Of a DNA stretch of 23,233 nucleotides, positions 1-21,400 are shown in pieces. The notes beneath the pieces were generated by a model. It saw only the letters and a list, made by a program, of their open reading frames with translations. It made no database searches and was not told the origin of the DNA. Within the stretch, counting starts at the first letter, position 1, and each line of letters opens with the position of its first letter. The stretch is from positions 1 through 23,233 of IMG/VR virus record IMGVR_UViG_3300009320_000123; one strand, given 5' to 3'. Made by a program: the position numbers and the translations under genes. The DNA comes from a virus.

Positions 1-2837
1 TCGATGCCCACGGCGGGGGCCAGTTGCCCCTCCTCGGACAGGAAACCCTCCGACTCCCCCTGCGTGACACTCATGATGAGCTTGATGATGTCCATAATGA
101 ACGCCGGGCCGACCGGGATGACCACCGCGATACCTGCCCCGAAGGCCAGCGGCTTGTCGTTGGGCTTGTTCTGGGCTGCCACCAAGTCTGCCATGACTCC
201 GCCCGTCCCGTTCGAGTAGAGCATGAGGGCGCTGCACTTCGGAATCTGGAAGGTGTAGCCCAGCATCGACTGGACGAGAGCGTTGATGCGCCGGATGAGC
301 TGCTGCAACTCGATGATTCGAGCCTCGATGAACTCGATGTACTTCTGGATGGTGTCCGTCACCGATTCGAGAGTCTTGGCGATAGCCTCCACCCAGTTGA
401 GGAACTGAGCCATGACTTCCTCGATGGCAGGAAACTGGTCGAGGAAGCGGATGGCAATCCACTCTCCGTCATCTGGGGAACGGTTCAAGGCAGCCCCAGC
501 CACCCCGAGGGCGAGCGCCGCCTCTTGGAGGAGCTGCCCGCCTTGGTACTTGGCGAACGCACCCCGGCAGAATATGACACCCGCACCCGGCACGTTTGCC
601 GGAGGTGGATTGGCCGACCGGACCTTTATCAGCTCGCGCTGCCCGACGTAGAACACCGGGGACAGGTCCGCCGACCCGACCGTCTGCTGTGTGGCAACCA
701 GCGTATTCATGGAGGCCCGGTCCTCGTCCGGCACCACGTAGGAGCCATCCTCCTGCCTGTACTTCTCGTAGAAGATTCGGAGCGACGGGGGCAACGCCCT
801 CATAAAGGTTTCGGCCCCCTCCGCCGCAACTGTCGGTGTGACCTTGAACTTGTCGTCCGTACCCCCGACCTTGCCCTCCTGCATCTGGGGACGCCGTTCC
901 TGAAATACTCCGTCGATGAAGAAGAACTGCTGGACCGTACTCGGGGCGACACCCATGCAGTACGGGTTCAGGGCGACACCGGCATCCAAGATGTTGCCCG
1001 ATACGTCGGTGTCCATGGATTCCAAGATGGTTGATGCAACCGTGGCCTCCGGGAGGTAGTGGAACAAGTCCGGGCTGACCTCTTTGATGATATTTCCCCA
1101 CAACACCGAGCGCAGGGCTTCGGTAGCATCCACCACTGCGGCCTCGGCTTCAGGTAGCGGGCCGGTCTTGCTGTAGAGGTCGTGAGCCGTCGCCCGGACC
1201 CACGTCAGAATGTGGTCGCGCATCTTCGTCGGGTCTTCTTCCCGTGTGTCCCGGAGCTTCTTGGCGAAGTCCTTGTAGATGAAGCCGACGAGGTGCTGGA
1301 ACTTTTCCAGCCCACTCCGCTCCAACGCCAGACCGGGGACGATGAGCTGATTGGCCTGCATGAGCTTGAGTTTCTCTGCGTCGATGACGTTTTCCAGCGT
1401 GTCGATGGGCGTCAGGTCGGGCCTGCTCAGGACCAGAACCACCAACGCCACCTGCACGGCTTCAAGGTACTGCTGGGTGTTCACGTTCGGGAACACCACG
1501 GGCCAAGGCTGGGAGAACTCGCTGATGGAGCTGTAGGGGCCGTCCGCGTCCTTGGTTGTGACCATCGGTGGCCGGGTCGTGTCGTCCTTGAGGGGCAGGT
1601 ACTTCGAGAAATCGTACTGGAACTCGACTTCCTTGCTCCCGATGGCCTCCGACGTGGAAGCCACGCGCACGTAGAGAGTGTGCGCCGGTCCGTCGTCCTC
1701 GATGGTCACTTCCCCTGTGGACGAGTCCATGGATACCGAGGCATCGTGAGGCATGTCCTCGGTCTTGAGCAGGTACGAAAGGGCGTCGCCCACCCACTTC
1801 TCACCAATGTTGACGGACATGAAGAAGGTCCGCTGGAAGAAATAGGTGTCGCCATCCTTGAGCGATTCCAACGGGATGGGGATGCCTGTCGGGGTGCGCC
1901 CGTAGATGCGGGTACGCCCGTCCTCGATTTTTACGTCCCCCTTGAGCGAGTTGTTGTACTGAAGGTCGGTCGGGAAGCCTGCGAGCATCTCCGCCCCACC
2001 ATAGAGGACGAAGTTGTCGTTGCCCTCGTCCTTTACAGGGCCGAAATCTCGGGGCTGCTGGCCGCCCACGGTGCCTGCATTGGACTGGCCCCGGTCCCAC
2101 ACGACGGGGATACCGTTCTCGAAGGTGGAGACGGTCACGATGTAGCCGCCCGGAGGCATCGGCGGGAACGGGTCAAAGGGGTTCTTCTTGGTGGGGACCG
2201 TGGCCACCCACTTGACCTGTGCCACGTTCGGGGGCGTCCCGTCCCCTTTCTTGAAGAAGGCACCCAAGTCCTCGATTTGCCAGACACTCAAGGCATCGTT
2301 GCCGTACTTGATTTCGGTGATAGTCGGCACGGGGAAGCCGCCCGGTGTCTTGTACTCCTGCTTGAAGAACTGGATGAGCTTCAGGATGAAGGCAATGAGC
2401 CGTTGGATGTCCGAGATGTCTACCGACAAGTAGAAGAACAGACTCAGGATGGCTGTCCGGCTCGACAGGTTCGGGCGCGTCGGGTCGGTTCTGTCGGTCA
2501 GTCGGGCAATCATCCGGCGCTCGTACTCTGCGAAACCTCCCCGCAACTCCTTGAAGGGGTATTTCATGAGAGGCCAGTCACCCGTGATGTAGATGCCCAT
2601 CTGGCGCAGGTCTTTCAGGAGGCCCTTTATCTCGTCGATGAGTGCCTTCACGATGGCCGCAATGGGGTCGATGTAGCCGATGAGGTATGCCTTGGCGATG
2701 TTCAACGCCACCAGCATGATGTCCAGCACCGTGATGAGAAACTCCGCCACCGAGTTGATGGCGTTCCGGGTGTCCTCCAAGAAGTCCGGGACTTCGAGGG
2801 TCAGAGTTCCCCATTGGTCGGTGGCGGTGTCGGCCAC
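1..2837 (-). CDS. Large phage structural protein, probably tail/baseplate (partial, 3' end beyond window)
   Basis: An open frame of 945 codons runs from a GTG at 2837 to the left edge without a stop, so the C-terminus is missing. The start follows a very strong ribosome site (GGAGGAGG, 2844-2851) and shares its G with the TAG of the preceding 80-residue gene, implying coupled translation. Residues about 27-75 are strongly hydrophobic to amphipathic helix, including VALNIAKAYLIGYIDP. A second hydrophobic helical stretch follows near residues 128-157. The middle (about 160-430) looks beta-rich, with a proline cluster PFDPFPPMPPGGY near residue 220. Residues about 790-860 form a long helical, probably coiled-coil segment. 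I recognise no enzyme motif or named family. The structural role is inferred from position in a hub/spike operon and from size. The N-terminal helices could be membrane-active or simply a packing hairpin. Confidence 0.75.
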   Translation of the reverse strand, partial: MADTATDQWGTLTLEVPDFLEDTRNAINSVAEFLITVLDIMLVALNIAKAYLIGYIDPIAAIVKALIDEIKGLLKDLRQMGIYITGDWPLMKYPFKELRGGFAEYERRMIARLTDRTDPTRPNLSSRTAILSLFFYLSVDISDIQRLIAFILKLIQFFKQEYKTPGGFPVPTITEIKYGNDALSVWQIEDLGAFFKKGDGTPPNVAQVKWVATVPTKKNPFDPFPPMPPGGYIVTVSTFENGIPVVWDRGQSNAGTVGGQQPRDFGPVKDEGNDNFVLYGGAEMLAGFPTDLQYNNSLKGDVKIEDGRTRIYGRTPTGIPIPLESLKDGDTYFFQRTFFMSVNIGEKWVGDALSYLLKTEDMPHDASVSMDSSTGEVTIEDDGPAHTLYVRVASTSEAIGSKEVEFQYDFSKYLPLKDDTTRPPMVTTKDADGPYSSISEFSQPWPVVFPNVNTQQYLEAVQVALVVLVLSRPDLTPIDTLENVIDAEKLKLMQANQLIVPGLALERSGLEKFQHLVGFIYKDFAKKLRDTREEDPTKMRDHILTWVRATAHDLYSKTGPLPEAEAAVVDATEALRSVLWGNIIKEVSPDLFHYLPEATVASTILESMDTDVSGNILDAGVALNPYCMGVAPSTVQQFFFIDGVFQERRPQMQEGKVGGTDDKFKVTPTVAAEGAETFMRALPPSLRIFYEKYRQEDGSYVVPDEDRASMNTLVATQQTVGSADLSPVFYVGQRELIKVRSANPPPANVPGAGVIFCRGAFAKYQGGQLLQEAALALGVAGAALNRSPDDGEWIAIRFLDQFPAIEEVMAQFLNWVEAIAKTLESVTDTIQKYIEFIEARIIELQQLIRRINALVQSMLGYTFQIPKCSALMLYSNGTGGVMADLVAAQNKPNDKPLAFGAGIAVVIPVGPAFIMDIIKLIMSVTQGESEGFLSEEGQLAPAVGI

Positions 2838-3079
2838 TAGATTCCTCCTCCGAACTTGAGCCGGGCCAACTGCTCCTTCAGGGCCACAAGCGATTTCTCA
2901 TCCTGCTCCACCAACCCCTGAAAGAGGTCGCGCAGGTGCAGGAGCTTCTCCCTCTGGTCGCCCACCATGGCGGGCATCACGCGACGGGCTTCCTTCTCGT
3001 CCCACTTACCGGGTTCGATGCCCAGCTCATCGAGGAGAGCTTTCAGCTCCTCTATCGTCTGTGGTGCCTGCTCACTCAA
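2837..3079 (-). CDS. Small helical protein of unknown function (80 aa, TTG start)
   Basis: I do not recognise this protein. The frame stays open further upstream, but that part only mirrors the giant gene in another frame and its protein sequence is low quality (Trp/Arg/Ser/Cys-rich). The real start is taken as TTG at 3079, preceded by GGAGAG at 3085-3090; this overlaps the giant gene's TGA by 8 bases. The protein begins MSEQAPQTIEELKALLDELG and is charged and almost wholly helical, with possible heptad patterning over residues 40-75, and ends in a Gly-rich tail (KFGGGI). It has no signal peptide, membrane span or cysteine. Its TAG stop shares a base with the next GTG start. It could be a small baseplate component, an assembly factor or a chaperone for one of its giant neighbours; only position supports this. 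Confidence 0.7.
   Translation of the reverse strand: MSEQAPQTIEELKALLDELGIEPGKWDEKEARRVMPAMVGDQREKLLHLRDLFQGLVEQDEKSLVALKEQLARLKFGGGI
2844..2851 (-). promoter_or_regulatory. Ribosome binding site deciding a GTG start
   Basis: GGAGGAGG on the minus strand lies 6 bases upstream of the GTG at 2837, inside the last codons of the preceding small gene. It is the strongest Shine-Dalgarno match seen in the window and fixes the start of the left-hand large gene. Confidence 0.8.
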
Positions 3080-6000
3080 CGATGCTCTCCGTGGCTTCCT
3101 CCAACAACAGGAGCCGTTCTCTCTCCGCCAGCCGCTCCGGCAGCTCCTCGTCGAACCGCTTGATGCCCGCCAGCGTCCCCAGAATCTTGTGAACCCTGTA
3201 GGCCAGCCAGACGTACCGGATGGGCCGGAAACGGTCCGACTCGTCCAGCACGAGGTCAATGCGCTCGGGCAGCACCGGGCGAACGTCACTGCCCCCACCT
3301 ATGTCATCGGTATAGGCCGTGTAGGGCGTGCCCCCCGGCGCTGAGAGCTTCATCGCTACGTTCTGGTAGGGCGGGTCGGCGTGGGTCAGGCGGTCGAGCC
3401 GCAGGTCGAAAATCCAGAAGCGCCGGTCCAGCAGGGAGAGGCAACTCCGGTTATTCATGAACGGGACAGTCCCCAGCTCCCCAATGATTTCCTCGATGAA
3501 AGCGTTGCTCAGGACGCCCATGCCGGACTCCGGGTCCGTGACGATGCCGAGGTCCGAGATGTGTTCCTTGTCTTGGAACTCGTAGTAGGAGCCGTACTTC
3601 CAGCCCCGCAACAGCGCCCGCAGCATCTCGACGAGGGACAGCATCCGCTCGCGCATGGTCAGCACAAGGTCGATGGCCTCGTCCGAGAACAGGCCGGACG
3701 GGCGGATGACTTTGTAGGAGAAGGGGCGGATGGAGTAGTCATTGCCCTTGTAGGTCTGTGTCACCGGGTCACGCTTGGCCGTCGGGCGCAGGTCCATCTG
3801 GCCCTCGAAGGGGGCTATTGCACCAGTAAGGCCCGAATCCGAGATGGTTGGGTAGATGGCGTACTCCCGGTTCGGGGTCGTCCCGCTTGCAAACGTCACC
3901 CAGTTGGTGTCGTTGATGCCACCCGCGTAGGTCGAGATGGGGTCCACCTCCAAGTGCGGAGTCGCACCTCCGATGACCTTCAGGACGCGATAGAAGCCCC
4001 GGTTGTCGTCCAGCTCGCTGGGCTTGCCCGCCCAGTCGTGCGGAGGTGCAGGCCACCTGCTTGTGACGCCGAGGTCCCCCAGAGGACGCGCCCCTCTGTC
4101 CGGGACAGCGGGCAGGCCGCCATGCTGGGGCAGAGTGCCTGCGGGGTCGATGACCACGATGTCCCCGACCCGGACGCCCACGGTCCCGAAGGTCTGGCTC
4201 CCGGAGGTCAGTTGGTCGTCGTACATCTTGTTGACCACGGTTTCGTAGTCCCCACCGGGTGGAATTTCCTCGACGTAGCCCCCCTCCTCGGTGTCCCAGT
4301 CGGCGTCGGAGCGGTAGACTTCCCGGTCGCTGATGAGTTCGAGGAGCTGCTCGTTGGACTGCTCGTGTGGGACTGGCGGCTGCCGGAGGTAAATCTCGAA
4401 GCGCATCCCGCCGAGAGCAGTCAGCTCGGCAGGTGTGCGCCGCGTGATGCCGGGCATGGCCAGCTTGAGGGTGACGGAATCCTCGACCCCCGTAATCTCG
4501 ACTTCCTCGATGAGCGTTCCGTCATCGTCGAGGAGCCGGAAGCGGTCCCCCGCGTTGATGTTCACGTCCGGGTCATCGAAGGGGCCGAGGTTGGTCCCGT
4601 CGTAGCTGAATCCGTCGTTCCACACATCCGGGGCGAGCGGGGCCGCCGGATTGGAGACGTTCCAGTTCATGACGAAGGAGGCCGTCACGACACCCCTCTG
4701 GCGGACGTTGGTCGAGTAGTCGTTGATGCGACCACGACGCATCTCGTAAGCGAACCGGAGGGCGCGAAAGTGGTCCCCGGCTTCTTCCATGATTTCGTGC
4801 CAGCGCCGGACGCTCCGCACGGTGTACTGGACCTCCTCTCGGGCGTCGAGGGTCGTGGCGGCCCCACCGGGGTACTGTGTCCCCGCGTACTCCAATTCGT
4901 TACGGAACCAGCTCTCTTTCTCCCAGTCGGGGACAGCAGCAAGGGGGTCCGCGATGGGGTGGGTTCTGTCCACCACCAGAGCGTCAAGGACCGACAAGTT
5001 GGCCACGGACCGGGGGAAGGACGGCTCGAAGAAGATGCCACCTTGCGCCCAGTAGCCGGGAACCACAGGCCCGGCGAGGTCGGCTACCGCGAGTTGCGTT
5101 CCCGGCAGAAGACAGTCCACCAAGGTCGGGCCGGGCGGTGCGGCGGTGTTGAGCGTCTCCCATTGGGGATGGGGGACATTCATGATGTCCAATGTATCCA
5201 CGACGTTGTGGTAGATGGGCGTCGTCAGGTCTGCCTCAAAATTGTTGCTCCCCACCGGGTTGTTCTCCCGGAGTCTCAGCGGGGTGCCTGCTCCTGTGCT
5301 AATGCCAGCAGGCCCCGTGAACAGGAGGTCTGCGCCGCCGGTCTGAATCGGCGGGCAGAGCGTGACGTGGCGGAACCCGCGTTCTGCGAGGGGGTCCTCG
5401 ACCCCGACGCAGTTGTCGTCGGGGAGGCCGTACTCGGAGCCGCCCATGGCCACGGGAAGATAGGTCATCCCGGACACCTGCAACGCCCGGTTTCCGATAA
5501 GAGCGTCGAACTCGGCGTCAGTCGCAATCAGGGTGTTCAGTGCGTCCCTGTAGGTCGCGGGGTCGAGAGTGAATACTGCCTCCTCTCCCGGAGAGACGAA
5601 CGAGGTGTAGGCCGCACTGATGAGTCCATAACGGAAATCAGCAACGACCCCCGAGGCCAAGGCGGAGAGGTCACGAATCAGATAAACACGCCCAGCCCCC
5701 ACTGCCGGGAAGGCCGAATACTTGCCATTTACCAGCGGAGCGCCCGTGTACTTGGTCTGGGGCAGGAACGTAATGGTCAACTCATGTGTCGCCGGGTCGA
5801 AGTCCACCACCCTCGGGAATTCCAGAGGGCACCAGCCATTACCCGCTCCGGCAACTGTGGTTGGGGACACCTCACGACGGACCGGAGCGCCCGCGTTTGG
5901 TTCGACCACATGCCGGATGAGATACGTCCCCAGCTTGGTACTGGCCGGGTGCGCGGCATCCACCGAGGAGTTGACAACGCACAGGTCGCCCTTCTGGATG

Positions 6001-12000: not shown

Positions 12001-14543
12001 AAACCCGCGATGTCCTGCAAAGGCGGGTAGTTCAGGAAGTAGAAAGGTGTCGGCGGGACATCCTTGGTGAGGATTCCGTCTTCGATACGGTCACGGTCCC
12101 GAATGTCCGGGGTGGCATCGGCCCGGTCCAAGTTGATGGGGCTGCGGGCCATCCCCAGAGCTGCCCCCGAGTCCGGGAGCCAGTTCTCGACCCCGCCGTC
12201 CGCCCTCCAACCGGGCAGGAATCCCAGCACGGCGGCCCCGGACAAGTCCTTCACCGGGACGCCCCCGGAACCCAGCGCACCCCAGCCAACTTCGATTGAC
12301 CCCGTGTCCGGGTCGGCTGCTTCGAGGACCACGCGACCATTCTGGGCGTAGGCCGCCCCGGCGGGAAGTGGGGGAACCGAGTTGGCCATGAGGTCCGCCG
12401 CGACCTCCTCGGGCGTGTAGAAGCTCTGGGCTGTCGGAGCTGTCCATTCGTAGGGCGTCCCGTCGATGGCGAAGTAGAGGGTCTGGGCCTCCTCGAACCG
12501 GAAGATGTCACGGTTGCGGGAGATGAGCCGGGCCTGCGTCGTGTAGGTCGCCGGGGTCACGGTCGCCTGAAGGAAGTAGACCGGCTCGCCCGGCGTGCCT
12601 CCCTGCCAGTCGTCCAAGTCGTCCCTGCTCAACATGACGCGGGAACCGTGCGCCCCCATCTCGCGGGCCACGTAGGCTTCGCCCTTCTGGACCTTGTAAG
12701 GCTGGGAGGGCAGGTCGTCTTCGCGGTCCACCACAAGGACTGCTGCGACCGCACCCTTCTTCGAGAAGATGATGGTGTCGCCTACTCCATCCGTGACCTG
12801 CCGCAGGCGGCCCGTGTTCTGGCCCGTGGAATCATCTCCACCGGGTCGCACGCTCGCGTCGAGCAGCGGGTACTTGGGGACAGCTCCCGTGGCGTCCGGC
12901 GCATCCAACATCCCGGACTTGCCAAGTCCGCGATATGGGTCCGAACCCACGAAGTTCTCGGGCAACACCTCCTCACAGGGCAGGTAGTATTCCGTGGCAG
13001 TGCCGACGATGGCGACACCGCCAGACTCGTTCAGGAGCTTGGTTGGCTCCTTGGTCGGCTGCGAGATGGCATTGAGGGCCACCCCGTCGTACACCACGTC
13101 CTCGCCCAAGAAGTGCTTGTCGAAGTGAACCGAGTCCGGGTCGGACTTGGCCACGTCTTCCGGGCTGAGGCGCAGGCGGCCCGTGGACAGGGACAGAACG
13201 ACCTGACCCACTGCGGGACTGGCCGCCGCTTCGAGCAGAGCGTCTGTCGCCACGAGGATGGGCTGAAGGTATCGCCGGTTGCCGAGCTTCAGAAGGGGCC
13301 GGTCCGTCGGGCCGGGGATGGGCGCGAGGAACAGCGGTTGGAAGTCCGCGTCCCGCAGTGGGCCAACAATCCCGTCCGCCGTCTCGAAGAAGTGCTTGTA
13401 GCTGTACCAGATGGTCTTGCCAGCGTGCTGTGCCGCGTAGGCGGGGTTGAACTCCAACTTGCCGTTGGAGCGGCCCATGACCGCCTTGGCCGTGGGGTCG
13501 TTGGAAAAGTCGTAACCGTCCTCGACCTCGCTATCCGGGCGAATCCGAATCATGTCCACCGGGGTACTCGCCGCTCCGGGGTTCTCCCCGAGGCGAATCA
13601 TGGCGTAGGCATCCGGTGTGGCCGAATCGCCCGGCAGGTAGGAGTTGACCGGCAGATTCGTGACCTTGGGGTCGAGCTGGTACATCTCGTCGAGGAGCAG
13701 CTTGCCCACATTGACGGAGCCGGTCCCCTTGTATGGCTCCCACTTCTGGGTCGTGCCGTTCCACCCGAACCGAGTCTCGTAACGGTCGTTGCGCGTCCAC
13801 CAGAACTTGGCCGGGGCCAGCGCGTACCGGACCTCCCGGATGCGGTCGCCCCGGTCGTTTGAGAGGCCGCCTTCAAGCACATCGAGAATCTGCCCGGTGT
13901 CGTAGGGCGGTTCCGGGATGAGGTCTTCGCGGGTCAGGCGCACGAGGCCCGCGTCTGCGTCTTGGTCCAGCGCCGTGAGCAGCACCGTGATGTAGGGCTT
14001 CGTCCCTTCCCGGATGGGGGTGGCCGACAGGTCGTCCTCGTCCGTCCAGCCCTCGTCGTCGTAGTCGTCCACGTCGCCACGGGAGATGACGAGGGCGATG
14101 ATGTTCCCGATGGACCTGTCCCCGTTGTCCTGCACCACGACCCGGCTGGTCCCGTCCTCGAAGAAGCCGTAGTTCACGGGGGTCGGGTCGCCCGGAGGAA
14201 TCACCGCAGGAGTGTCGTCGGTGACTTGAAGCTCACCGATGGGGATGGTCCCGAAGCCCTCCTCGGTCCACCAGTCCGGGTCGAGCGCGACCGCGAGCTG
14301 GGCCGTGTTGGCCGCCCAGAGGAGGTACTCGACAGGCGTGGTGCCGGGAGCTTCGAGAACAGCGGTGCGGTACTGGTCGGCCCGAGCGTCCACGAACTCC
14401 GGGGACTGGGGTTCCAAGGCGTAGATTGGCGGGACTTCCCGAGCGTCCCGGAGGACTCCCGTCACCGGCTCGCCGGTTGATGCCGAGTTCGAGGGCGCGA
14501 TTCGAGGCGGCCTCAGAACCCATCCGTCAAAGGAGAAACCCAT
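3072..14543 (-). CDS. Giant beta-rich phage structural protein (3823 aa)
   Basis: One uninterrupted frame of 3823 codons begins with ATG at 14543, four bases after the upstream TAA starts to close the preceding gene (TAACGGATG). The ribosome site is weak, so translation probably depends on coupling. I recognise no enzymatic domain. Most of the chain is Pro/Gly/Thr/Asp-rich and reads as successive beta domains. A loose unit recurs: a turn with Gly, then G-x-L-x-F/L, then 10-20 residues, then an alternating hydrophobic strand. Copies are near residues 358 (NGKLEF), 451 (TGRLRL), 1234 (TGDLNF), 1369 (KGRLTF) and 1655 (TGNFQL). A six-proline run sits near residue 2616. The last 250 residues differ: helical, charged, with MRERMLSLVEMLRALLRG followed by YYEFQDKEHISDLG. 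Position after hub and spike suggests a baseplate, wedge or tail-fibre-like virion component. The role is inferred; the gene itself is certain. Confidence 0.9.
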   Translation of the reverse strand: MGFSFDGWVLRPPRIAPSNSASTGEPVTGVLRDAREVPPIYALEPQSPEFVDARADQYRTAVLEAPGTTPVEYLLWAANTAQLAVALDPDWWTEEGFGTIPIGELQVTDDTPAVIPPGDPTPVNYGFFEDGTSRVVVQDNGDRSIGNIIALVISRGDVDDYDDEGWTDEDDLSATPIREGTKPYITVLLTALDQDADAGLVRLTREDLIPEPPYDTGQILDVLEGGLSNDRGDRIREVRYALAPAKFWWTRNDRYETRFGWNGTTQKWEPYKGTGSVNVGKLLLDEMYQLDPKVTNLPVNSYLPGDSATPDAYAMIRLGENPGAASTPVDMIRIRPDSEVEDGYDFSNDPTAKAVMGRSNGKLEFNPAYAAQHAGKTIWYSYKHFFETADGIVGPLRDADFQPLFLAPIPGPTDRPLLKLGNRRYLQPILVATDALLEAAASPAVGQVVLSLSTGRLRLSPEDVAKSDPDSVHFDKHFLGEDVVYDGVALNAISQPTKEPTKLLNESGGVAIVGTATEYYLPCEEVLPENFVGSDPYRGLGKSGMLDAPDATGAVPKYPLLDASVRPGGDDSTGQNTGRLRQVTDGVGDTIIFSKKGAVAAVLVVDREDDLPSQPYKVQKGEAYVAREMGAHGSRVMLSRDDLDDWQGGTPGEPVYFLQATVTPATYTTQARLISRNRDIFRFEEAQTLYFAIDGTPYEWTAPTAQSFYTPEEVAADLMANSVPPLPAGAAYAQNGRVVLEAADPDTGSIEVGWGALGSGGVPVKDLSGAAVLGFLPGWRADGGVENWLPDSGAALGMARSPINLDRADATPDIRDRDRIEDGILTKDVPPTPFYFLNYPPLQDIAGFDEGVFFNLQTIITDGDDVQVVNKPLQHYRDIIHRFGQRKFDWVERDTIEGTVDTMTTTLNLGETAVSPESMLGAPGIGGGLYISPDGGPRVLQSQDNDYVLPQNGTPGTVILVERFGSRVASGAQGSFQEGGTAFTDPFADYTNPANPVQVGYRLKVGSSDAEGSYTVQAITSPTELDVLPPFPAASPNPVVWEVFQGFTRDVYDPTVIADITYKDFNHLQTEPFKVLMLSPVGAVPATTPAPPLQANMEAALSSGRLINIRYGLMLATAANTATLVELTQTELGPIANNVLDVPAVTSTRFTTESFSIRVGTVLYSHGSGLNPVASFSPDPGDAIEYLTAVSGPDPVGRLKFGSNVLTSYAAAPVWYVEEFLPAADMAALEVEYRPQTGDLNFSAADMAAFEGTTAYFVEQMITEQRRDVSLSPLLGAFAFTTPIPQDSSIEVEYWRADLEGRKVGEMITEFLPVFVRAEAAVRTARNTYTFGSEDTTIDQRIEPTVYIGPMMQNFGTTDYLVDYPRELNGKGRLTFVRTVEAHIPVTVSYAVFEAQGGEQAYESSQKPVYRPPFFIKAGVSEFGVWGDRTAEFELGQMFRIGEECFYVTKLTYYPPRTDSEGRDKGDVTGIGIFPTTTNEVGTRAPGNDVITVVTSEAVATEVTPHGGSPTPTNAPLGFMSEVDTSVFPFEPVSRGQKHITFTGDLTEFAQPGHVFELDGSPFTISEVTLNDDGTRTKISVTSGFRSGFSMDTPPLVKLSYRPIYPPESRDFLGVGPILLDEPYELVLDGETDSAGNPLPGRTLAEGVEYSLDPGTGNFQLLEPVQAALQPGQFLHLYFTRIRPLQPFLKDGVVATPRYAANFLYGAIPTEANGLLGALLTATYTFYNPDSFYFRCVRLPAFLGEAAREAVEEITSKQPASGAPTTAGGGDENWELGRNGLLGERSNLEDKDRAARTFLDFYNQSIEAFEQVNETISGGFIGDRDGKFRFFVGHDKDWPTPGYEDAISGLVQPRHVWSEVYNEARPDIDLTYLESDWIVAPSTVAISGGVIDGFLPDPSQLRDMTARQGQLVQNDVDDRVFIQLGKRHIARTTSFPFFDYKAKGIYARMTDQHRFSRLYPTLTRAFLMTYPGVGAEPEANDFGVYTYGRSIDGSRQSTHGETIGQLYNPVLEDITTVVTADLGLRFARGRVWAYQPDGIPAAVFTGGTEPVMAIPDPAIIAFPALLRDVPLDPDTNYPDDAQLLSQGGSIPDAGSGDYELAVPGFWQGQQLRWGRPDGTTYELYDRDNPIDVDGEPSFTGIFVREVLYGCVILLQDADDNPIADSGRVLIGLTPDSGIPLHEFPAEQGDTVFVGPPIGSMTGVGPNEFQDPPEFVDFERMANALDSYRTGFDLDIKSDGRLVDKTYPSFHDPFWFGFKELFGQKPPDPMTAIEGPVEFLYMGQNPLRVPALDGGITDDSGDYQIPYMRAGDTELDRFDEIGASFPRVMVAVDGLGNAVYPDEILGNDGEVMTAPALLPATLQTVQDPSRTGVGEGTVRPYDVILMQPPGPFATEGPMGIHTVGAVYDPQPPSPLPPGPPYGFEPPRFVAHTAPAPGGGVSDTGDPVRYTFDDAMVWLDPSQTYPDFPAPGLPGVEVIEDTALGVTILDFSSIGQFELNNGLLPAVGNLNDVWGLVGPKATNVIAIKFILRKDFAVQFWPLGASGPPFPNMSGGVIGITMFIIGPNVWTVDWDGNPLAIPAVVPGITFGDSHPAYPSPTNQQIIVQGTGWFPWFNLGGPPPPPPGQENEWFLPYVTPAPGVYRTLYGQEFSFDINTAGGESTTGWIAEDRLTFHEVYDLRMAKERGYVHPIVPLPPFVQLELESKLVVTEVLAPNPNPAPDPHYWTEVNSYTNGLDPAPPNDPIPYTFLLRHGQTEVGSWEPATAAPEAELATIKVMGFEGHGNTPITGDNVTFSAMPSNDNAEGTTNICGGVGLAAGFHNTDLTPNERRTSDNRLVIETPPALGGLALIQKGDLCVVNSSVDAAHPASTKLGTYLIRHVVEPNAGAPVRREVSPTTVAGAGNGWCPLEFPRVVDFDPATHELTITFLPQTKYTGAPLVNGKYSAFPAVGAGRVYLIRDLSALASGVVADFRYGLISAAYTSFVSPGEEAVFTLDPATYRDALNTLIATDAEFDALIGNRALQVSGMTYLPVAMGGSEYGLPDDNCVGVEDPLAERGFRHVTLCPPIQTGGADLLFTGPAGISTGAGTPLRLRENNPVGSNNFEADLTTPIYHNVVDTLDIMNVPHPQWETLNTAAPPGPTLVDCLLPGTQLAVADLAGPVVPGYWAQGGIFFEPSFPRSVANLSVLDALVVDRTHPIADPLAAVPDWEKESWFRNELEYAGTQYPGGAATTLDAREEVQYTVRSVRRWHEIMEEAGDHFRALRFAYEMRRGRINDYSTNVRQRGVVTASFVMNWNVSNPAAPLAPDVWNDGFSYDGTNLGPFDDPDVNINAGDRFRLLDDDGTLIEEVEITGVEDSVTLKLAMPGITRRTPAELTALGGMRFEIYLRQPPVPHEQSNEQLLELISDREVYRSDADWDTEEGGYVEEIPPGGDYETVVNKMYDDQLTSGSQTFGTVGVRVGDIVVIDPAGTLPQHGGLPAVPDRGARPLGDLGVTSRWPAPPHDWAGKPSELDDNRGFYRVLKVIGGATPHLEVDPISTYAGGINDTNWVTFASGTTPNREYAIYPTISDSGLTGAIAPFEGQMDLRPTAKRDPVTQTYKGNDYSIRPFSYKVIRPSGLFSDEAIDLVLTMRERMLSLVEMLRALLRGWKYGSYYEFQDKEHISDLGIVTDPESGMGVLSNAFIEEIIGELGTVPFMNNRSCLSLLDRRFWIFDLRLDRLTHADPPYQNVAMKLSAPGGTPYTAYTDDIGGGSDVRPVLPERIDLVLDESDRFRPIRYVWLAYRVHKILGTLAGIKRFDEELPERLAERERLLLLEEATESIVE
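3085..3090 (-). promoter_or_regulatory. Ribosome binding site supporting a TTG start
   Basis: GGAGAG on the minus strand lies 5 bases before the TTG at 3079, inside the final codons of the giant structural gene. It is the main reason for choosing this rare start codon, since no ATG or GTG lies near the point where the frame becomes protein-like. Confidence 0.65.
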
Positions 14544-14546
14544 CCG

Positions 14547-15155
14547 TTACACCACCACGCAAACCGTCGGCCCGGACATCGGAACCGGCGGAACTGTCGG
14601 CACTCCTACAACTGCACCTGCCCCAGTACCCTGTAACAATAGGCTGGCTATTCCAATGCCCAGCCCGGTTGCCATCATGCTGAGGGCTGGCCCCGGCCCC
14701 AGAGTCGCGGTCAAGGTCTGCATTAACATACCGACGAGGGAGGCCGAATTGGCCACCGTAATCTTCGAGACATCCGCCCCCACCCCGACGCCCGCCGCCG
14801 GTCCCACGTACTGGGCCGATGCGTTGAAGGCGGTCGAGATGCCGGTTGAGATGGCGAGGGCGAGGCTCTGCGCCAGAGGACCCACCATCCCGGCCCCGGC
14901 CAGCCCGGCCTGCACCAGTCCCGGATTGGGTGGCACGATGACCTTCGAGGCCACGGGGTTCACAGCTCCTCCGCCGGACACTCCGGTTGCCAACCCGGTC
15001 AAGCCGAGGTTCTGCGGCTGCATGATTCCCCACTGGGAGACTCCGTTTGCAACCCCGAGCGCCATCCGGTCGTAGTTCACCCCGCCGAAGGAGTGGATGC
15101 CCGAAGTCCGCGCCAAGGAGAGCGAGGAGTAGAGGATGCCGGGGTTCAGTGCCAT
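14547..15155 (-). CDS. Gly/Ala-rich hydrophobic protein of the tail operon (202 aa)
   Basis: The start is ATG at 15155, giving MALNPGILYSSLSLA. GAGGAG at 15159-15164 precedes it and overlaps the TGA of the endonuclease gene. The frame is open to a TTG at 15194, but those extra codons lie over the endonuclease end and lack a ribosome site. After about 40 polar residues, residues 45-170 are unusually rich in Gly, Ala, Leu, Val and Ser, with stretches such as LGLTGLATGVSGGG, ATGLGIGIASLLLQGTGAGA and VGVGADVSKITVANSASL. There is no signal peptide and no clear charged flank typical of a true membrane protein. The C-terminus is Pro/Val-rich (VPPVPMSGPTVCVVV). I do not recognise a family. It lies between spike and giant protein, so it may be a tail-tip or inner-tail component; a membrane-interacting role is possible but unproven. 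It ends 3 bases before the giant gene's ATG. Confidence 0.8.
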   Translation of the reverse strand: MALNPGILYSSLSLARTSGIHSFGGVNYDRMALGVANGVSQWGIMQPQNLGLTGLATGVSGGGAVNPVASKVIVPPNPGLVQAGLAGAGMVGPLAQSLALAISTGISTAFNASAQYVGPAAGVGVGADVSKITVANSASLVGMLMQTLTATLGPGPALSMMATGLGIGIASLLLQGTGAGAVVGVPTVPPVPMSGPTVCVVV

Positions 15156-15158
15156 ATT

Positions 15159-15164
15159 CTCCTC
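15159..15164 (-). promoter_or_regulatory. Ribosome binding site of the Gly/Ala-rich gene
   Basis: GAGGAG lies 3 bases upstream of the ATG at 15155 and includes two bases of the endonuclease gene's TGA. Because it directly follows the duplicated spike-gene tail, it was probably the ribosome site at the spike/202-aa gene junction before the endonuclease arrived (inference). Confidence 0.7.
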
Positions 15165-15948
15165 AAGGCCCAACGATGTGGGACTCGACGACAAGTCGGC
15201 ACAACCGGAAGAACTCTTGCTGGTCCATGTCCCATTTCATTTGCTGCACCCGCTTGTCCACCCACTGGATGTTCCCTTCGACGTACCCCTTTCTGCTGTC
15301 GATTCGGTCTAAAGAAGCGGTCCCCTTCCGCGCCCCGACGGGCGGGAAGTGAATGGGAAGTCCGGTTAAGGCACACTTTCCGCCCTGCTTCTTGAACAAG
15401 TCCCACACCTCTCGTAAGGACACACCGACCTCCAACCCACGAGCTTGGGCGTTGTTCAGGATGTTGGACCAGAAGGTCTTAGGTATCTTGCCCACACCCT
15501 GCCAATTATGCGCCCTCTGCCCCCTCCGGCGACGCCCCATGGCCGAGGCGGATTCTTTGGCGAGGCAGCCACAACTTCGAGTCGTCCCATTAGAGAGGTT
15601 GGATAAAGACACCACTTTCCGTTTCCCGCAATCACAACGACAGTCCCACCGAGTCCCCCCTGACTGCGTGCTTCTCTGATTACGACCCTCTACCACGAGC
15701 CGCCCGAATCTCTTTCCCACCATCTCTGCTTCAGGAAACGCTCTCCAAGAAGCCCCCCTCAGACACCCACAGCTTTGCGTGTGGCCGGACCGGACCTTGG
15801 TGAGAACTTTGATGACCGAAGCCCCACAGGAGCATTGAAACGTCGCCTGTGTCCGGCCATTCTTGTGGGGCGGGGCGGCCCCCCGCAGAGTAAGCTCGCC
15901 AAACTGCTGCCCAATCAGCTCCTCAACGCTAATTTTCGGCGCACCCAT
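15163..15948 (-). CDS. HNH homing-type endonuclease with two zinc-ribbon-like repeats (261 aa)
   Basis: This is probably a free-standing mobile endonuclease. I chose ATG 15948 (MGAPKISVEELIGQQFG) because GAAAGGG lies 5 bases upstream; an ATG at 15990 would add 14 residues but has no ribosome site. Numbered from 15948, there are two cysteine modules: C39-x-C41-G with SCGC ending at C62, and W-x-C103-x-C105-x-C107-G with SCGC ending at C128. The second follows FGRLVV, the layout common in phage HNH proteins. The nuclease part starts near residue 188: GGKCALTG (C192), then SLDRIDSRKGYVEGNIQWV with D214, D217 and N226. The usual late Asn before M-K is replaced by Gln (VQQMK). The gene interrupts the tail operon, looks less GC-rich than its neighbours (107 of 180 bases hand counted at 15481-15540 and 15601-15720), and its last six residues copy the spike's end. 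Active-site assignment is by family analogy. Confidence 0.9.
   Translation of the reverse strand: MGAPKISVEELIGQQFGELTLRGAAPPHKNGRTQATFQCSCGASVIKVLTKVRSGHTQSCGCLRGASWRAFPEAEMVGKRFGRLVVEGRNQRSTQSGGTRWDCRCDCGKRKVVSLSNLSNGTTRSCGCLAKESASAMGRRRRGQRAHNWQGVGKIPKTFWSNILNNAQARGLEVGVSLREVWDLFKKQGGKCALTGLPIHFPPVGARKGTASLDRIDSRKGYVEGNIQWVDKRVQQMKWDMDQQEFFRLCRLVVESHIVGP
15170..15185 (-). repeat. 16-base direct repeat, copy inside the endonuclease 3' end
   Basis: On the plus strand this reads ccaacgatgtgggact. It matches 14 of 16 bases of the copy at 16001-16016 (ccgacgatatgggact) in the same orientation. In the endonuclease frame it encodes S-H-I-V-G, and the protein ends 1 residue later. Both mismatches fall at third codon positions and are synonymous (CAC/CAT, GTT/GTC). 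Confidence 0.85.
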
Positions 15949-15953
15949 TGTGA

Positions 15954-15960
15954 CCCTTTC
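15954..15960 (-). promoter_or_regulatory. Ribosome binding site favouring the internal ATG of the endonuclease
   Basis: GAAAGGG on the minus strand is 5 bases upstream of ATG 15948. The alternative ATG at 15990 is preceded only by GGTAGTTAGTTT, which has no useful Shine-Dalgarno match. Confidence 0.5.
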
Positions 15961-15993
15961 ACTGTGTTGTCTTGTTAGAGGGCGTCCCATAAA

Positions 15994-18420
15994 CTAACTA
16001 CCGACGATATGGGACTTGGCTCCCATGCCAAAAGTAGAGAAAGGCAAATTCGTGAAGGGGTCGAGCGACCCGGCACAGATGATTGGCCCTTGGTCCGGCC
16101 CAGAGATGGGGCCACCGAGATAGACCCCGGAACCTCCCTTGAGCGTGGCTGTCCCTGCGGCAGAGGAAACCGTGGCCGCCGCCTGACCTTCCATCGTGGC
16201 CGTCCCGGCGGATGCCTTCAACGAGACGTTCCCCGCCTTGGCCGCCCCGGTGATGCCCGATGAACTCAGCTCCATGCTGCTTGTGACTGCCTTGGCCTTC
16301 CACACACCGAGCTTCAGGTCGAAGGTCATGTTGCCGACGAGAATCTCCGTCTTGTGGTTTCCGAGGGTGAACTTTTCTCGCCGGTCCCCCGAGGTATAGG
16401 TGACTTTTTCTGCAACCATTCCGGGGAACGCGGGCGAGTAATTCCGCTCATGGAGCGGCCCCGAGGTCGGGAGAAGCCCTTTCGGCCCGGCGTAACTTTC
16501 TTGGGCCTTCCCGTTGACAGTCTTGTGAAAAGCGTCCGTCGTGAGGGACATCGACTTGGTGGCATTCAGGTCCATATTCTGGTGGGCCGTGACCTGCACC
16601 GAGGTCGCGTTGCCGTCGATGATGTTGCCCTTCAGGAACACGGTCTTCTCGGCCTTCACCCGGACATTGGTGCGCCCTTGGATGTCCACCGACGGCAGGT
16701 TGCCGGAGCCTTGGCCCGAACCCGAGACGGACTCCACCTTGTCCGAGGCGTCCTTCGGCCCTCCGCCCCCGAAAATCTTGACCTGCCCGGCCTCGGACGA
16801 GAGGTCGAGACTGTTTTGGCTCCGGGTGCCGAGACTCACATGGCCGTTGAGCAGCAGTTCGAGTTTCCCGCCCATGCCGAGCTTCAGGCCGCCGTGGAGG
16901 TATGCCTCGATGGACGACTCTCCCGGAGGACCCCCGATGGATGCCTTGAGCTGCCCCTTCTTGTTGAGGGACCAGAACGTCTCCGGGCCGCCGGGTCCGA
17001 TGGGCGGTGTCAGCTTCATCAGCGTGGCAGCCTGTTCTTCCAGCGGGGTCGGCTGAACCCCGGACCCCGGAAGAGGGATGTTGGCCGCTTCGAGCCGTGG
17101 GGAAGGAGTCGTTCCATCGAAGATAATGGCTTGGAGGGGCAGGCCGTACATGGTCCGGCCCTGCTGGGAGAACGGGTCGTTCCCGACCACCGACCCCATC
17201 ACGCACTCGATGAAAGGCATGTTCGGCGGCAGCCCCTCGGGAGCTGAGGACGGGTCAGTCGAGGGAAGCCGCTCCGCGTCGAACCCGTCCGTCTGCTCGG
17301 TGACAGGGAGGCGGCCATCCGAGGTGTGTGTCACGTCGATGCGGTACTCGGTCAGGGTCGGTTTGTCCGGGTCGAGGTGCGCGTTATCCCGAGACTGGGA
17401 GGACACACGGTAGATAATTTTCCCACCGTAGATAGCGTCCGGCTCTTGTGTGCCGGGGGCCACGAAGCCCGTCTCGTCGATGAATCCGCCGAGACGCATG
17501 AACTCGTAGGGGTCGAGGTACGGGTTGTCCCCGAGGAAGCTGCGCCCGAGATAGCCGCCTTCCGCATCCTTGAGGCCCTTCCGCAGGATACGGGCAGGAG
17601 TCAGGAAACCTTCAGGAGACTGCTGGTCTGTCGGCAGGCCAAGGTCACTGACCGGCTCCTTCGCGGATGCTTGGCGGCTGCCATCCCAAAGATTGTCATC
17701 CCCCACCATGGAAGGGTGAAGGGCCAGTGCGTCCCGTTGCACCATCCCGGCGTAGACTCGCGCCCCAGCAAGAGCTTGGAAACTCTGCAAGGCCCGAAGA
17801 ATGGCCGCTTGGTCTTGGTCCCGCAGGCGGAACTCATTACCACGCCTGTTGGCGAGCCGGACGCTTTCGTCCAGAATGAAATCCGCCCCCTGAGACGAGC
17901 TGGCCACCACGTTACCGGGCTGGGCGTGCCGGAGTTTGTGTCGGACGCGGTTGTAGGCACCTTCCGCGAACTGCCGGTCCACAGGGGACTCTTGGTCGAA
18001 CTCGTCCACTCCGAATTCGCCAGTCGTCAGCCACTCACGACCGGGCCAGACTCCGGGGATAATCCACGTCAGAATCACGGGGGAGCGGGTGCCTTGGGAG
18101 TTGCTGCTCTCCTGTGGCAGCCAGCCGATGATGCAAGTGTCCCCCACCTCGGGCATTGCGCCGAAGAAGTGCCTCGCCCCTGCTCCGGGGAAGGTCAACG
18201 GGATGGGCACACGCTCGAAGGTGTCGGACGCCCCTGTGAGCGTCTGTAGAGTGACGTAGAACTCCTCGTAGTCGATGGTGACGACCTTGGCGACCCCCAG
18301 ACCCCAACCCGTCTCCGGGCGCATCTTCTTGAGGTCGGTCTTCGCCTTGGTCGTGGTGGAACGCATCGCCCCGCGAGAAACGGTATCCAGCACTCCTACA
18401 GGTCTGCGGGTTTCCGGCAT
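15994..18420 (-). CDS. Baseplate central spike protein, gp5/gpV-like (808 aa)
   Basis: The likely role is the membrane-piercing spike that trimerises under the hub. ATG 18420 overlaps the hub gene's TGA by one base (TGATG) and has GAGGAAG at 18425-18431. Residues about 36-122 look like the OB-fold of phage spikes: short strands, then GAMPEVGDTCIIGWLP (87-102), then SPVILTWI (113-120), the usual 'pressure-tested' P-x-x-GD pattern followed by a P-V-x-L strand. Next is VASSSQGADFILDESVRLAN (172-191) followed by GNEFRLRDQDQA, typical of the post-OB segment of large-phage spikes. From about residue 520 onward short alternating-hydrophobic repeats (for example VSLGTRSQNSLDL, VQVTAHQNMDLNATKSMSL) suggest a triple-stranded beta-helix. 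The chain ends GMGAKSHIVGS, a tail duplicated in the endonuclease gene. No lysozyme-like domain is seen, unlike T4 gp5; the hub carries a peptidase instead. Fold assignments are by pattern only. Confidence 0.82.
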   Translation of the reverse strand: MPETRRPVGVLDTVSRGAMRSTTTKAKTDLKKMRPETGWGLGVAKVVTIDYEEFYVTLQTLTGASDTFERVPIPLTFPGAGARHFFGAMPEVGDTCIIGWLPQESSNSQGTRSPVILTWIIPGVWPGREWLTTGEFGVDEFDQESPVDRQFAEGAYNRVRHKLRHAQPGNVVASSSQGADFILDESVRLANRRGNEFRLRDQDQAAILRALQSFQALAGARVYAGMVQRDALALHPSMVGDDNLWDGSRQASAKEPVSDLGLPTDQQSPEGFLTPARILRKGLKDAEGGYLGRSFLGDNPYLDPYEFMRLGGFIDETGFVAPGTQEPDAIYGGKIIYRVSSQSRDNAHLDPDKPTLTEYRIDVTHTSDGRLPVTEQTDGFDAERLPSTDPSSAPEGLPPNMPFIECVMGSVVGNDPFSQQGRTMYGLPLQAIIFDGTTPSPRLEAANIPLPGSGVQPTPLEEQAATLMKLTPPIGPGGPETFWSLNKKGQLKASIGGPPGESSIEAYLHGGLKLGMGGKLELLLNGHVSLGTRSQNSLDLSSEAGQVKIFGGGGPKDASDKVESVSGSGQGSGNLPSVDIQGRTNVRVKAEKTVFLKGNIIDGNATSVQVTAHQNMDLNATKSMSLTTDAFHKTVNGKAQESYAGPKGLLPTSGPLHERNYSPAFPGMVAEKVTYTSGDRREKFTLGNHKTEILVGNMTFDLKLGVWKAKAVTSSMELSSSGITGAAKAGNVSLKASAGTATMEGQAAATVSSAAGTATLKGGSGVYLGGPISGPDQGPIICAGSLDPFTNLPFSTFGMGAKSHIVGS
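16001..16016 (-). repeat. 16-base direct repeat, copy at the spike gene 3' end
   Basis: This copy (ccgacgatatgggact on the plus strand) encodes S-H-I-V-G near the C-terminus of the spike, whose last residues are AKSHIVGS. It matches the copy at 15170-15185 at 14 of 16 positions with the same codon phase. Confidence 0.85.
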
Positions 18421-21400
18421 CAGTCTTCCTCGGCTCCTTGCGTAAACGCGCTCTGAAGATTACCGGAGGCATCCACGATATTCGTCACCGCAGGCCCGAG
18501 CGCGGCCACTGCTGCGCCGGTCTTTGCCCCTGCTGCGTCAAACGCTTCCTTCGACCCCTTAATCGTGTCCACGATGGAGGTAGGTCGCTGGTCCGGCAGG
18601 CTGCCCGCGAGGGCGTCCCGTGACATCTGCCAGCCCACCGCCCGCTCTGCCGACGTGGACATGAGCCATGAAGTCACCCGGTCCTGCGTGCCATCGCCGT
18701 AGTCTGTCGGAACGGTGGTCGCGGGGGCCACGAACTTCACGAAGTCCTCCTGCCCCGCCGCTTCGAGGAGGGTGTTCGCCTCGGCCATCTTGCACTGACA
18801 GACGTTCTTGCCGACGGCCAAGGTCATGTCTGCCAGAGAGTAGGCCGCGTTGTTAATAGGCACCTTCTGGATACCGTCCTTGCCCTTCTCCGCGAACCAG
18901 TTGGACAGTCCGAACTGAAGGACATTCGGGTCGTCCGTCTCCACGGCCAGCCCGAGGTCGAGAATCTGCTTGTCGGTCAACCGGGTTTGGAGCTTCTCTA
19001 AGACGATTTTCTCCAAGGCGGTCCGGGCCTCGGGGGCGGCTAGTGTCTTCTTGACCGTCTTCGTCTTCCCGTCCAGCCCCGTTTCGGTCGTCGTAATCGT
19101 GATGGGTTGGCCCTTGATGAAAGCCCGCACAACTTGGTCGATGGTGTGCTTGTCGAGGAGCTGAAGAGGGTCTTGAGCGTGCATCACGGCGAAGACCCCT
19201 TCCGGGTCGATGTCCACGTCCCGGCCATACCGGAAAGCACCGATGACCTCGTAGCCGCCTGCATCGGACACCGGGAACACGGGACTCTGCACGTTGCCCT
19301 TGTAGGTCTTGAGCTTCCGCGTCTTCACCTTCGACCGGCGCTGGCTCGTTCCCGCCCCCGCCAACCCGTTGAAGGTACTCAAGGCCAGCTTGGCATCTTC
19401 TTCGCTCAACTGGGAGATTTTCATGACCTTGAACCACGACTTCCGGGCGCTCTCCATATCTCGAAACAGACGGTATCCGAGGCCCTTTGAAGCGGCTTTA
19501 TAGAATTGCTCAACGGTGTAGCCGCCGCCTCCTGAAAAAGCCGTGTCCCCTCCCGCCGTGGCCCCGATGAAGTCGTACTCCCCCATCACGGCGCTCATCG
19601 GGATGGATGTATTGCGGAAGGTTATCCCCGAGGGAAAGGCAAGTGCAGGGAACGCTGGCACTTTGTTCTGCTGTGCCGCTGGCAGCGCGGCCTTAGCAGC
19701 CACCGCTGCATCCACAAACTTCTGGGCCAGTTCCTCCCACGGGCCTTTAGTGATGGCCCCAAGGGTGGAGGTCAATCGGGTTTCCTCGTCCGAGGAGGCC
19801 AGCACCTTCTGATAGAAGGCCGTCCCCAGTGACTTCTGGGAACCCTTGGTCAAGTCCGGGTGGGAGGACTTGGGCGAAGTCGTCGTAAGCGGCTTCTTCA
19901 GGGACACCTTGTGAGAGGCGAACATCAACTCCCGAATCTCACTGGTGGGCAACACCTCGCCGCTGGGTGCTTCCGGGTTGTTGGTGAAGACCTTGATGCC
20001 CCACTCCGGCTCCATCTCCCCGAGGGTCGCCGCAGGCACCTTGTCCCCAGCAGCGACCGTCTTCTTGGAGTCCTCCACGAAACCTATGACCTTCGGACCC
20101 TTCCAGACGGCCTCCAAGAATGGGTTGGATGTCTCGACGGCCTTGTCATCCACCGACTTCTTCACCTTGAAGTTGGGCTGTAGTTGTCCCTGATGTTCCT
20201 TGCTCGGGTGGGAAGCCGAGTAATACCGATAGGTTCCGGGCAGCGTCCCGTTGGTCATGATGGACTTCTTGTCCGAGAGCATGTCGAGGAGGCTCGACGG
20301 GGAGTTGATGTCCCCGAACGTCTCCCCCTCGGTCTGCTGCTTCGTCTTGTACGACTCCCCCACAACCGAGATGAGCTGGTTGAGGTACGAGATGTCCGTC
20401 TGCTGGCCCGGTTCCAGTGTTTCCCAGAAAGCCAGCTCCTCCGCACGAATATGACTGTTGGCATCCTTTATCTGCTTTTCCAGCTTCTCCCAGTCCTTGG
20501 CAATCTTGTCGAGCGCCACTTTGTGGTCCGCCGCAGGCTTCAGGTTCCGCACTTGGGAATCGAGGGTTACGAGGTCGGACTCCCATTTCCTGATATTGAC
20601 CAGTTGCTCGTCCCGCTTCTGGACGTAGGCCGCCTTGTGGGCGTTGTAGGCCCCAGCGAGCTTTCTGATGTCCTTGGCACCCGACGGAGCCGACCCCCCG
20701 CTTTCCGAGAAGTAGAACGAGATGTTCCCCATCTCCGATACCGCCGACTTGTAGACAGGGCCGGGGTTACTGGGGTCCTCGGTCGTCAGGACTTTGAGTT
20801 GGACGGCCTGCTTCAGGAAATTGTTGATGGTGTCCTCATTGTCGAGGACAGCAACATCAGACCCCACGATAAAGAACAGCGGGTTTAGCTGCTCAGGGTC
20901 GAGCGCCATGACCACGTTAGGGAAGCCTGCCAGCCGGGGACGGTCTGCCATGTCCAACACCTCCAACGGCCTCTGGGGGAGCCGGGTATTGGAGAGGTCG
21001 ATGGCGTCGATGCCGGTCTTGTCCACCCTGCCGGGCGCGTAGAACTTGGACCGCTTCCCGACGAGCTGGATGGTGGTGGTGCATTGACCACCCACAGAGA
21101 AGCTGTGCGCGAAGGAGTTGTTGTAGTAGAAGCAATCGAGGTACGCAATATAGACCGGGTAGCCGGGCCGAATCTCGGGCCGCAACGGGATGGTTAGCGA
21201 CGCCGAAGTCGTAGGGACGTTCATCACATCCATGCGGTTCACGGCAGCGAAAAACATGCTCTTGGGGTCGTTGAAGTAGGCTGTCTCGTAGTCGCCGGGC
21301 CGCCAGCCAAATTGGGCCACCAGCCGGTAGTCGATGTACTGGCCCTTGACGCCCCACTCATTCTCCATCCCGTGGCCCGCCAAATTCTTGATTTGGGAAC

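Follow-up and report, generated by a model that had tools for sequence, protein, structure and literature searches.

The window analysed here is the whole 23,233-nucleotide stretch of virus DNA held as IMG/VR record IMGVR_UViG_3300009320_000123 (positions 1-23,233), in which a free-standing HNH-type endonuclease gene lies between a gene for a putative baseplate spike and a gene of 202 codons, all three on the minus strand (Table 1). Our analysis suggests, with a probability that we put at about 0.73, that this phage homing endonuclease gene moves together with a substitute 3' end for the gene that it targets. In the series of events proposed, the HNH enzyme would cut the DNA of a phage that lacks the endonuclease gene, within its final spike codons, repair would copy the donor's short spike tail with its stop and then the endonuclease gene, and the far side of the break would rejoin inside the recipient's own spike tail. 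The product would contain, in order, a spike gene with the donor's end, the endonuclease gene and the recipient's former tail; since this displaced tail would still be in frame, its codons and stop would close the endonuclease gene, and the next gene, whose start region had overlapped or adjoined the end of the spike gene, would keep that region.

The two 16-base copies on which this proposal builds, AGTCCCATATCGTCGG in the spike gene and AGTCCCACATCGTTGG in the endonuclease gene, are identical at 14 positions, lie 831 bases apart and share the same codon phase, as the first-pass annotation had reported, and their two mismatches are silent (CAT/CAC for His and GTC/GTT for Val). When up to four mismatches were allowed and both strands of the window were scanned, the 16-mer was found at just these two sites, and none of 20,000 codon-resampled endonuclease tails attained the 14 of 16 match (the best reached 13). 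The spike gene ends GAKSHIVGS-TAG, the open reading frame (ORF) of the endonuclease opens 3 bases past that stop, and the endonuclease gene ends ESHIVGP-TGA, after which come GGAGAAT and the start codon (ATG) of the 202-codon gene. A second record, L002 (IMGVR_UViG_3300009314_000094), has an identical junction layout within 13,237 bases that are 99.93% identical to the window, which makes an assembly slip less likely, although the two records may come from the same sample. A gene flanked by direct repeats could also be a transposon-like insertion that duplicated its target site, or an endonuclease gene housed in a group I intron or intein, but we consider this extremely improbable, given that the copies diverge immediately after the 16 bases, that the left end is common to different hosts, that no Rfam family matched at an expect value (E) of up to 1 across positions 14500-18500, and that spike and endonuclease occupy separate frames, each with its own stop. 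On the last two grounds, the element was not classed as a group I intron or an intein.

Using the spike gene and its tail as queries, we obtained 56 loci. Many of these share a contig, and 39 junctions remained once those identical over 180 bases had been merged; two of the loci, L087 (empty) and L088 (another neighbour), were added by a scan of genome contigs and are included in the counts. Thirty-three of the 39 junctions are empty, the spike stop being followed in all of them by a match to the profile of the 202-codon gene's family, starting -4 to 18 nucleotides away (L064, one of the 33, reaches its contig edge after 46 codons of this gene). Two others (L077 and L088) continue with something other than a gene of this family, and four are occupied, namely the window, L030 (three near-identical contigs, L028-L030), L072 (three contigs, L072-L074) and L067 (one contig). 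These empty junctions support the earlier suggestion of an endonuclease gene inserted at the 3' end of the spike gene, and the presence of occupied and empty alleles at a single site in related phages is the behaviour of a free-standing homing endonuclease gene. On G007, the 536-kb virus contig behind L059, nine stretches match the endonuclease profile and none of them is at the spike junction, which is empty.

The shared tail was traced to the spike gene. Spike tails with GAK were present at 18 of the 39 distinct junctions, and among ten aligned spike relatives nine had GAK and all ten had the H that follows it. Because HIV(G) is common to the spikes of empty relatives, this sequence is native to the spike and was not acquired from the endonuclease. 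Among 85 distinct C-termini of the endonuclease relatives listed, a set that excludes the window's own enzyme, H-x-[V/I]-G was found in two, the L030 and L067 types, both from the spike site; L072, the one other type from that site, lacks it, and it is absent from all 82 distinct C-termini from outside this site, so that homologues elsewhere with the same S-H-I-V-G end, which would have counted against the first-pass annotation, did not appear. In the fold model of the enzyme the final helix stops at residue 257 and residues 258-261 have a predicted local distance difference test score (pLDDT) below 50, and five aligned relatives from other sites terminate 9-15 residues past the last conserved cysteine. 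If the gene were an ordinary intergenic insertion, the common tail would reflect chance or selection on the ribosome-binding region of the next gene. The tail does abut the start region of that gene, and its GG-rich codons could act as a ribosome site; however, the resampled tails never reached the observed match, the part of L030 that matches spike tails includes GGAGCGAAGGGTCAC, too far upstream for a ribosome site, and the listed relatives from other sites lack this tail, some of them bearing tails of their own neighbours, which leaves such an insertion very improbable.

A displaced resident end past the endonuclease gene is the pattern present in L030, whose endonuclease gene ends GAKGHIVGA-TAA with a stop that overlaps the ATG of the next gene. 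Over the last five codons of this endonuclease gene, 13 of 15 bases agree with the spike end of the empty sister, L058, against 6 of 15 with the spike end of L030 itself. The L030 spike end, in turn, matches that of the window at 13 of 15 bases and that of L072 at 12 of 15, and of the last 12 spike bases five match L058 and ten match the window. On these matches, L030 seems to combine a foreign left end with a right end that was resident, the import comprising apparently some four to five codons and a stop. Spike ends of the AGT-TAG type occur at three of the four occupied junctions (window, L030 and L072) and at one of the 35 others (L006/L003; p 0.0017, for a signature chosen after the data had been seen). 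The sequence TTAGTTTATGG at the window's left spike stop (15987-15997) is also present in the empty L076 junction, where its ATGG starts the 202-codon gene, and the import may include the start codon that this gene had in the donor. HxVGP-TGA is the reading of the right copy in both the window and L067, as would suit an older resident end common to them.

We built trees of the spike C-terminus (26 rows), the 202-codon gene (24 rows) and the endonuclease (13 rows). In the spike-end tree, L030 is the sister of the empty L058 (100/100), the window groups with the empty L006 and the occupied L067 (100/99), and L072 pairs with the empty L076 (86/89), each occupied lineage thus having an empty relative close by. 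The tree of the 202-codon gene concurs for window, L006 and L067 (99/97) and for L072 and L076 (93/88). The four spike-site enzymes form one clade against nine relatives in the endonuclease tree (96/97).

The same layout was found at other genes. Two wide endonuclease scans, of which the best 80 loci each were kept, together with one further locus, yielded at least 129 distinct closed-frame loci. An end-anchored test, in which the tail of the upstream gene was compared with that of the endonuclease, was applied after two spike-site loci had been added and 10 endonuclease-like neighbours dropped, and eight of 106 loci reached p<0.01, against 1.06 expected from a null of 11,130 mispaired combinations. 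Six of the eight appear convincing to us, namely L160, L030 (as L183), L227, L101, L106 and the window. The clearest case away from the spike site is L227, where the upstream thymidylate synthase (phrog_160, E 7.2e-89) ends SPAIKYEVAI and the endonuclease ends NPTIKAEVAV; the two best-matching solved thymidylate synthases terminate PAIKAPVAV and PAIKAPIAV. The HNH endonuclease ORF of this locus (3776-4342) lies directly after the complete thymidylate synthase gene. The endonuclease of L106 stands behind a portal gene, L148 has a copied gene end immediately past the endonuclease stop, and L121 and L124, near copies of one another, share a tail at a different offset. Homologues of the host genes of L101 and L148 were not found in the phage collection, and those of the L106 host gene had less than 30% identity among the matches listed.

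Mirror-image cases, in which the start of the downstream gene also occurs upstream of the endonuclease, were found among 91 loci tested at L174 (ADP-ribosylglycohydrolase), L215 (DNA ligase) and L147 (topoisomerase II), and further 5' end copies, for which no null was run, at L198 (RNA ligase) and L168 (an unnamed gene). At L174, which is on G007 at about 1100-3017, an ADP-ribosylglycohydrolase stump (about 50 codons, YTDDT-stop) precedes the endonuclease, and a complete copy whose start has diverged follows it. Among the loci examined, about one in ten has a copied end and most have none. We regard the chances as even that homing in a widespread class of phage HNH elements proceeds through exchange of a target-gene end, in a 3' type and a mirror 5' type, with the imported end both repairing and shielding the target, and that gene ends evolve by replacement through repeated homing. 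As part of that same evenly weighted proposal, the 3' type would leave a new tail and stop, the endonuclease gene and the old tail, which would be read in frame as the C-terminus of the enzyme, and the 5' type an old start stump, the endonuclease gene and a complete gene with a new start.

Several observations weigh against the proposed replacement of gene ends. The tails are short, so that assignments depend on 12-27 bases, and in L030 the contrast is slight just upstream, where of the 18 bases that precede the last 12 of the spike gene 15 match L058 and 14 match the window. The nearest empty relative of the window (L006/L003) ends NHNVGS-TAG and matches the left copy at 13 of 15 bases and the right copy at 8 of 15, opposite to the pattern of L030. 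The endonuclease of L072 ends THSARRD, with no clear copy of a spike tail, although this may be an eroded HGAKGH. That of L067, which is known from a single contig, ends GAPPNHRVGP and gave p 0.046 for tail sharing in the end-anchored test; its left end is not of the AGT-TAG type, and its two copies agree at 6 of 15 bases. The remaining two of the eight loci in the end-anchored test, L168 and L174, are marginal and look like chance, and the further loci with p<0.01 in a separate pair of tests, one for 3' copies (L250, L155, L233 and L113) and one for 5' copies (L117, L155, L250 and L067), look like composition effects and were not counted. In the trees, the 202-codon gene did not recover the pairing of L030 with L058, the window and L030 endonucleases grouped together, with L067 outside, at a support of only 87/85, and the approximately unbiased (AU) test, which rejected forcing the window and L067 endonucleases together as their host genes are (p-AU 0.0104), was run after the groupings were known.

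Since the nearest empty relative of the window resembles its left copy, we only infer that the direction there is the same as in L030. The first-pass annotation had taken the left tail as rebuilt and the right one as original, an assignment that the copies of L030 appear to follow and that the window's nearest empty relative, taken alone, speaks against. It had also named as support empty spikes ending SHIVGP-stop, and none was found among the junctions examined, the nearest being GAKAHNVGP-TAA (L061) and GAKGHIITP-TGA (L060). If the direction is the same, L006 would either have lost the endonuclease gene and kept the imported end, or lie near the donor lineage. With the polarity reversed, the left copy, VGS-TAG, would be the resident end of the window and the endonuclease gene would have come with a spike-derived tail from a donor phage, as the end of L006/L003 and an agreement of window and L006 at 29 out of the 30 bases with which the next gene begins would suggest. 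We consider this unlikely, as L030 shows the opposite pattern, AGT-TAG is found at three of the four occupied sites, which belong to different host lineages, and stretches at least 29/30 identical between window and L006 recur elsewhere (22 of 2374 in the spike gene). Because of this recurrence, the identity at the start of the next gene was dropped as support for a conversion tract between window and L006.

A single old insertion inherited vertically, with losses and no homing since, would account for the near-equal identities between window and L030, which are 61% for the endonuclease, 60% for the spike and 59% for the 202-codon gene. This explanation is also improbable, if somewhat less so than reversed polarity, because the AU test rejected the joining of the window and L067 endonucleases, although both host genes group these two with L006, and because an empty relative lies near every occupied lineage. 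The conflict between endonuclease and host trees, whose branch support is moderate, is that expected of horizontal spread and fits a site-specific endonuclease lineage that moves between phages. The near-equal identities of the three genes suggest that movement between the window and L030 lineages was not recent.

The endonuclease was assigned to the HNH type by its match to the HNH endonuclease family phrog_374 (Table 1); no Pfam family matched above its cut-off, and a profile search against solved structures returned nothing relevant. Its fold model (pLDDT 77.6) had as top match the PacI HNH nuclease 3ldy (E 4.5e-3), which at a template modelling score of 0.30 is only suggestive. Of the extent given to the gene earlier, the end was kept, and a start at 15948 (MGAPKI), which agrees with the lengths of relatives, is more likely than one at 15990. 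For the 808-residue product upstream, 'spike', as used in the first-pass annotation, is a likely name only, since its top family match, DUF2345 (E 0.03), is below the cut-off of that family and its fold model (pLDDT 48.6) is poor and unusable. A DNA search with 4 kb against annotated phages gave no match, and the spike protein found among them a single distant record, LR745208.1 (38%), in which the spike end and the next gene differ and which was left out of the junction counts. With 485 kb for LR745208.1 and up to 536 kb for the contigs that carry other relatives of the spike gene, a huge phage is a possible source of the window.

Table 1. Features of the spike-endonuclease junction in the window
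Feature	Coordinates	Strand	Evidence or comparison
Putative baseplate spike gene (host gene), 808 aa (amino acids), end GAKSHIVGS-TAG	15994..18420	-	71% identity to L003, 60% to L030
Left repeat copy, 16 bases (read 16016-16001)	16001..16016	-	sequence comparison
Left tail CAT ATC GTC GGT AGT TAG, rebuilt and probably imported spike end	15994..16011	-	AGT-TAG shared ends, pairwise matches
Leader, 45 nt (nucleotides), spike stop to start of endonuclease core	15949..15993	-	46 nt in L030, 45 nt in L072
HNH endonuclease gene, 261 aa (ORF open from 15990, 275 aa)	15163..15948	-	phrog_374, E 9e-41; phrog_3322, E 4.4e-21
Presumably HNH-like region CALTG...SLDRIDSRKGY...NIQWV	15259..15375	-	many invariant columns among nine aligned relatives
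Right repeat copy, 16 bases (read 15185-15170)	15170..15185	-	sequence comparison
Right tail TCC CAC ATC GTT GGG CCT TGA (SHIVGP-stop), probably resident spike end serving as endonuclease C-terminus	15163..15183	-	not found in examined relatives off this site; residues 258-261 pLDDT <50
GGAGAAT, ribosome-binding-like spacer of next gene	15156..15162	-	sequence
Next gene, 202 aa, conserved neighbour of spike gene	14547..15155	-	202-aa-family profile matches in relatives

A comparable unit, consisting of an endonuclease gene and a donor 3' end of its target, has been proposed for the WHO elements at FBA1 in Torulaspora and Lachancea (PMC7282813). In the part of that account considered here, as in our proposal, homing turns the target into a chimera that has the donor's end and leaves the recipient's former 3' end on the far side of the endonuclease gene. 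The WHO elements differ in that they are found in yeast, encode an intein-like endonuclease with a zinc finger and carry FBA1 fragments of about 400 bp that may decay (PMC7282813), while on the phage side there is an HNH gene with an imported tail of apparently about five codons and a former end that would serve in frame as the C-terminus of the endonuclease. Cutting was demonstrated for one WHO protein (PMC7282813), whereas that by the phage enzyme is predicted. We did not place the phage gene in the WHO family proper, its enzyme being of the HNH family and its neighbour a putative phage spike, not an aldolase. Mobile ORFs with C-terminal duplications are also described in fungal mitochondria, at atp6, atp9, cox2 and nad3 of Glomus and at atp6 of Allomyces (PMC3630166). 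According to the relevant part of that report, here too a foreign C-terminal end is carried by a mobile endonuclease ORF, the native end is pushed downstream and it is nearer to that of sister species than the inserted end is; the enzymes, however, are of the LAGLIDADG or GIY-YIG type, and the native ends of atp6 and cox2 are said to be no longer translated (PMC3630166).

Free-standing phage homing endonucleases are represented by the mob and seg genes of T4 (PMC2988022), lactococcal HNH genes (PMC12724721) and mycobacteriophage HNH genes, including Omega gene 51 (PMC3706429). As described in the available portions of these accounts, such genes lie between phage genes, are sporadic and form location-associated clades, all of which resembles the present case, and in Omega lysin A has a new 3' end where an HNH gene is inserted (PMC3706429). 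The same portions of the T4, lactococcal and mycobacteriophage accounts describe neither a copied flanking gene end nor its reuse as the terminus of an endonuclease (PMC2988022, PMC12724721, PMC3706429). Within the terms searched, the open-licence literature yielded no account of a phage homing endonuclease with a copied gene end beside it. The first-pass annotation called such reuse of host codons unusual; the layout is not confined to this locus and recurs at other genes.

Free-standing phage homing endonucleases are usually pictured as harmless settlers between genes. The endonuclease described here seems instead to enter the end of a coding sequence, to pay for its entry with a spare gene end, which may also protect the occupied site from its own enzyme, and to recycle the displaced end as its own C-terminus. 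Since copied ends also turn up beside unrelated genes in other phages, this may be a general means of exchanging phage gene ends, in parallel with the WHO elements of yeast, and it provides a signature that can be searched for, an endonuclease whose C-terminus resembles that of its neighbour.

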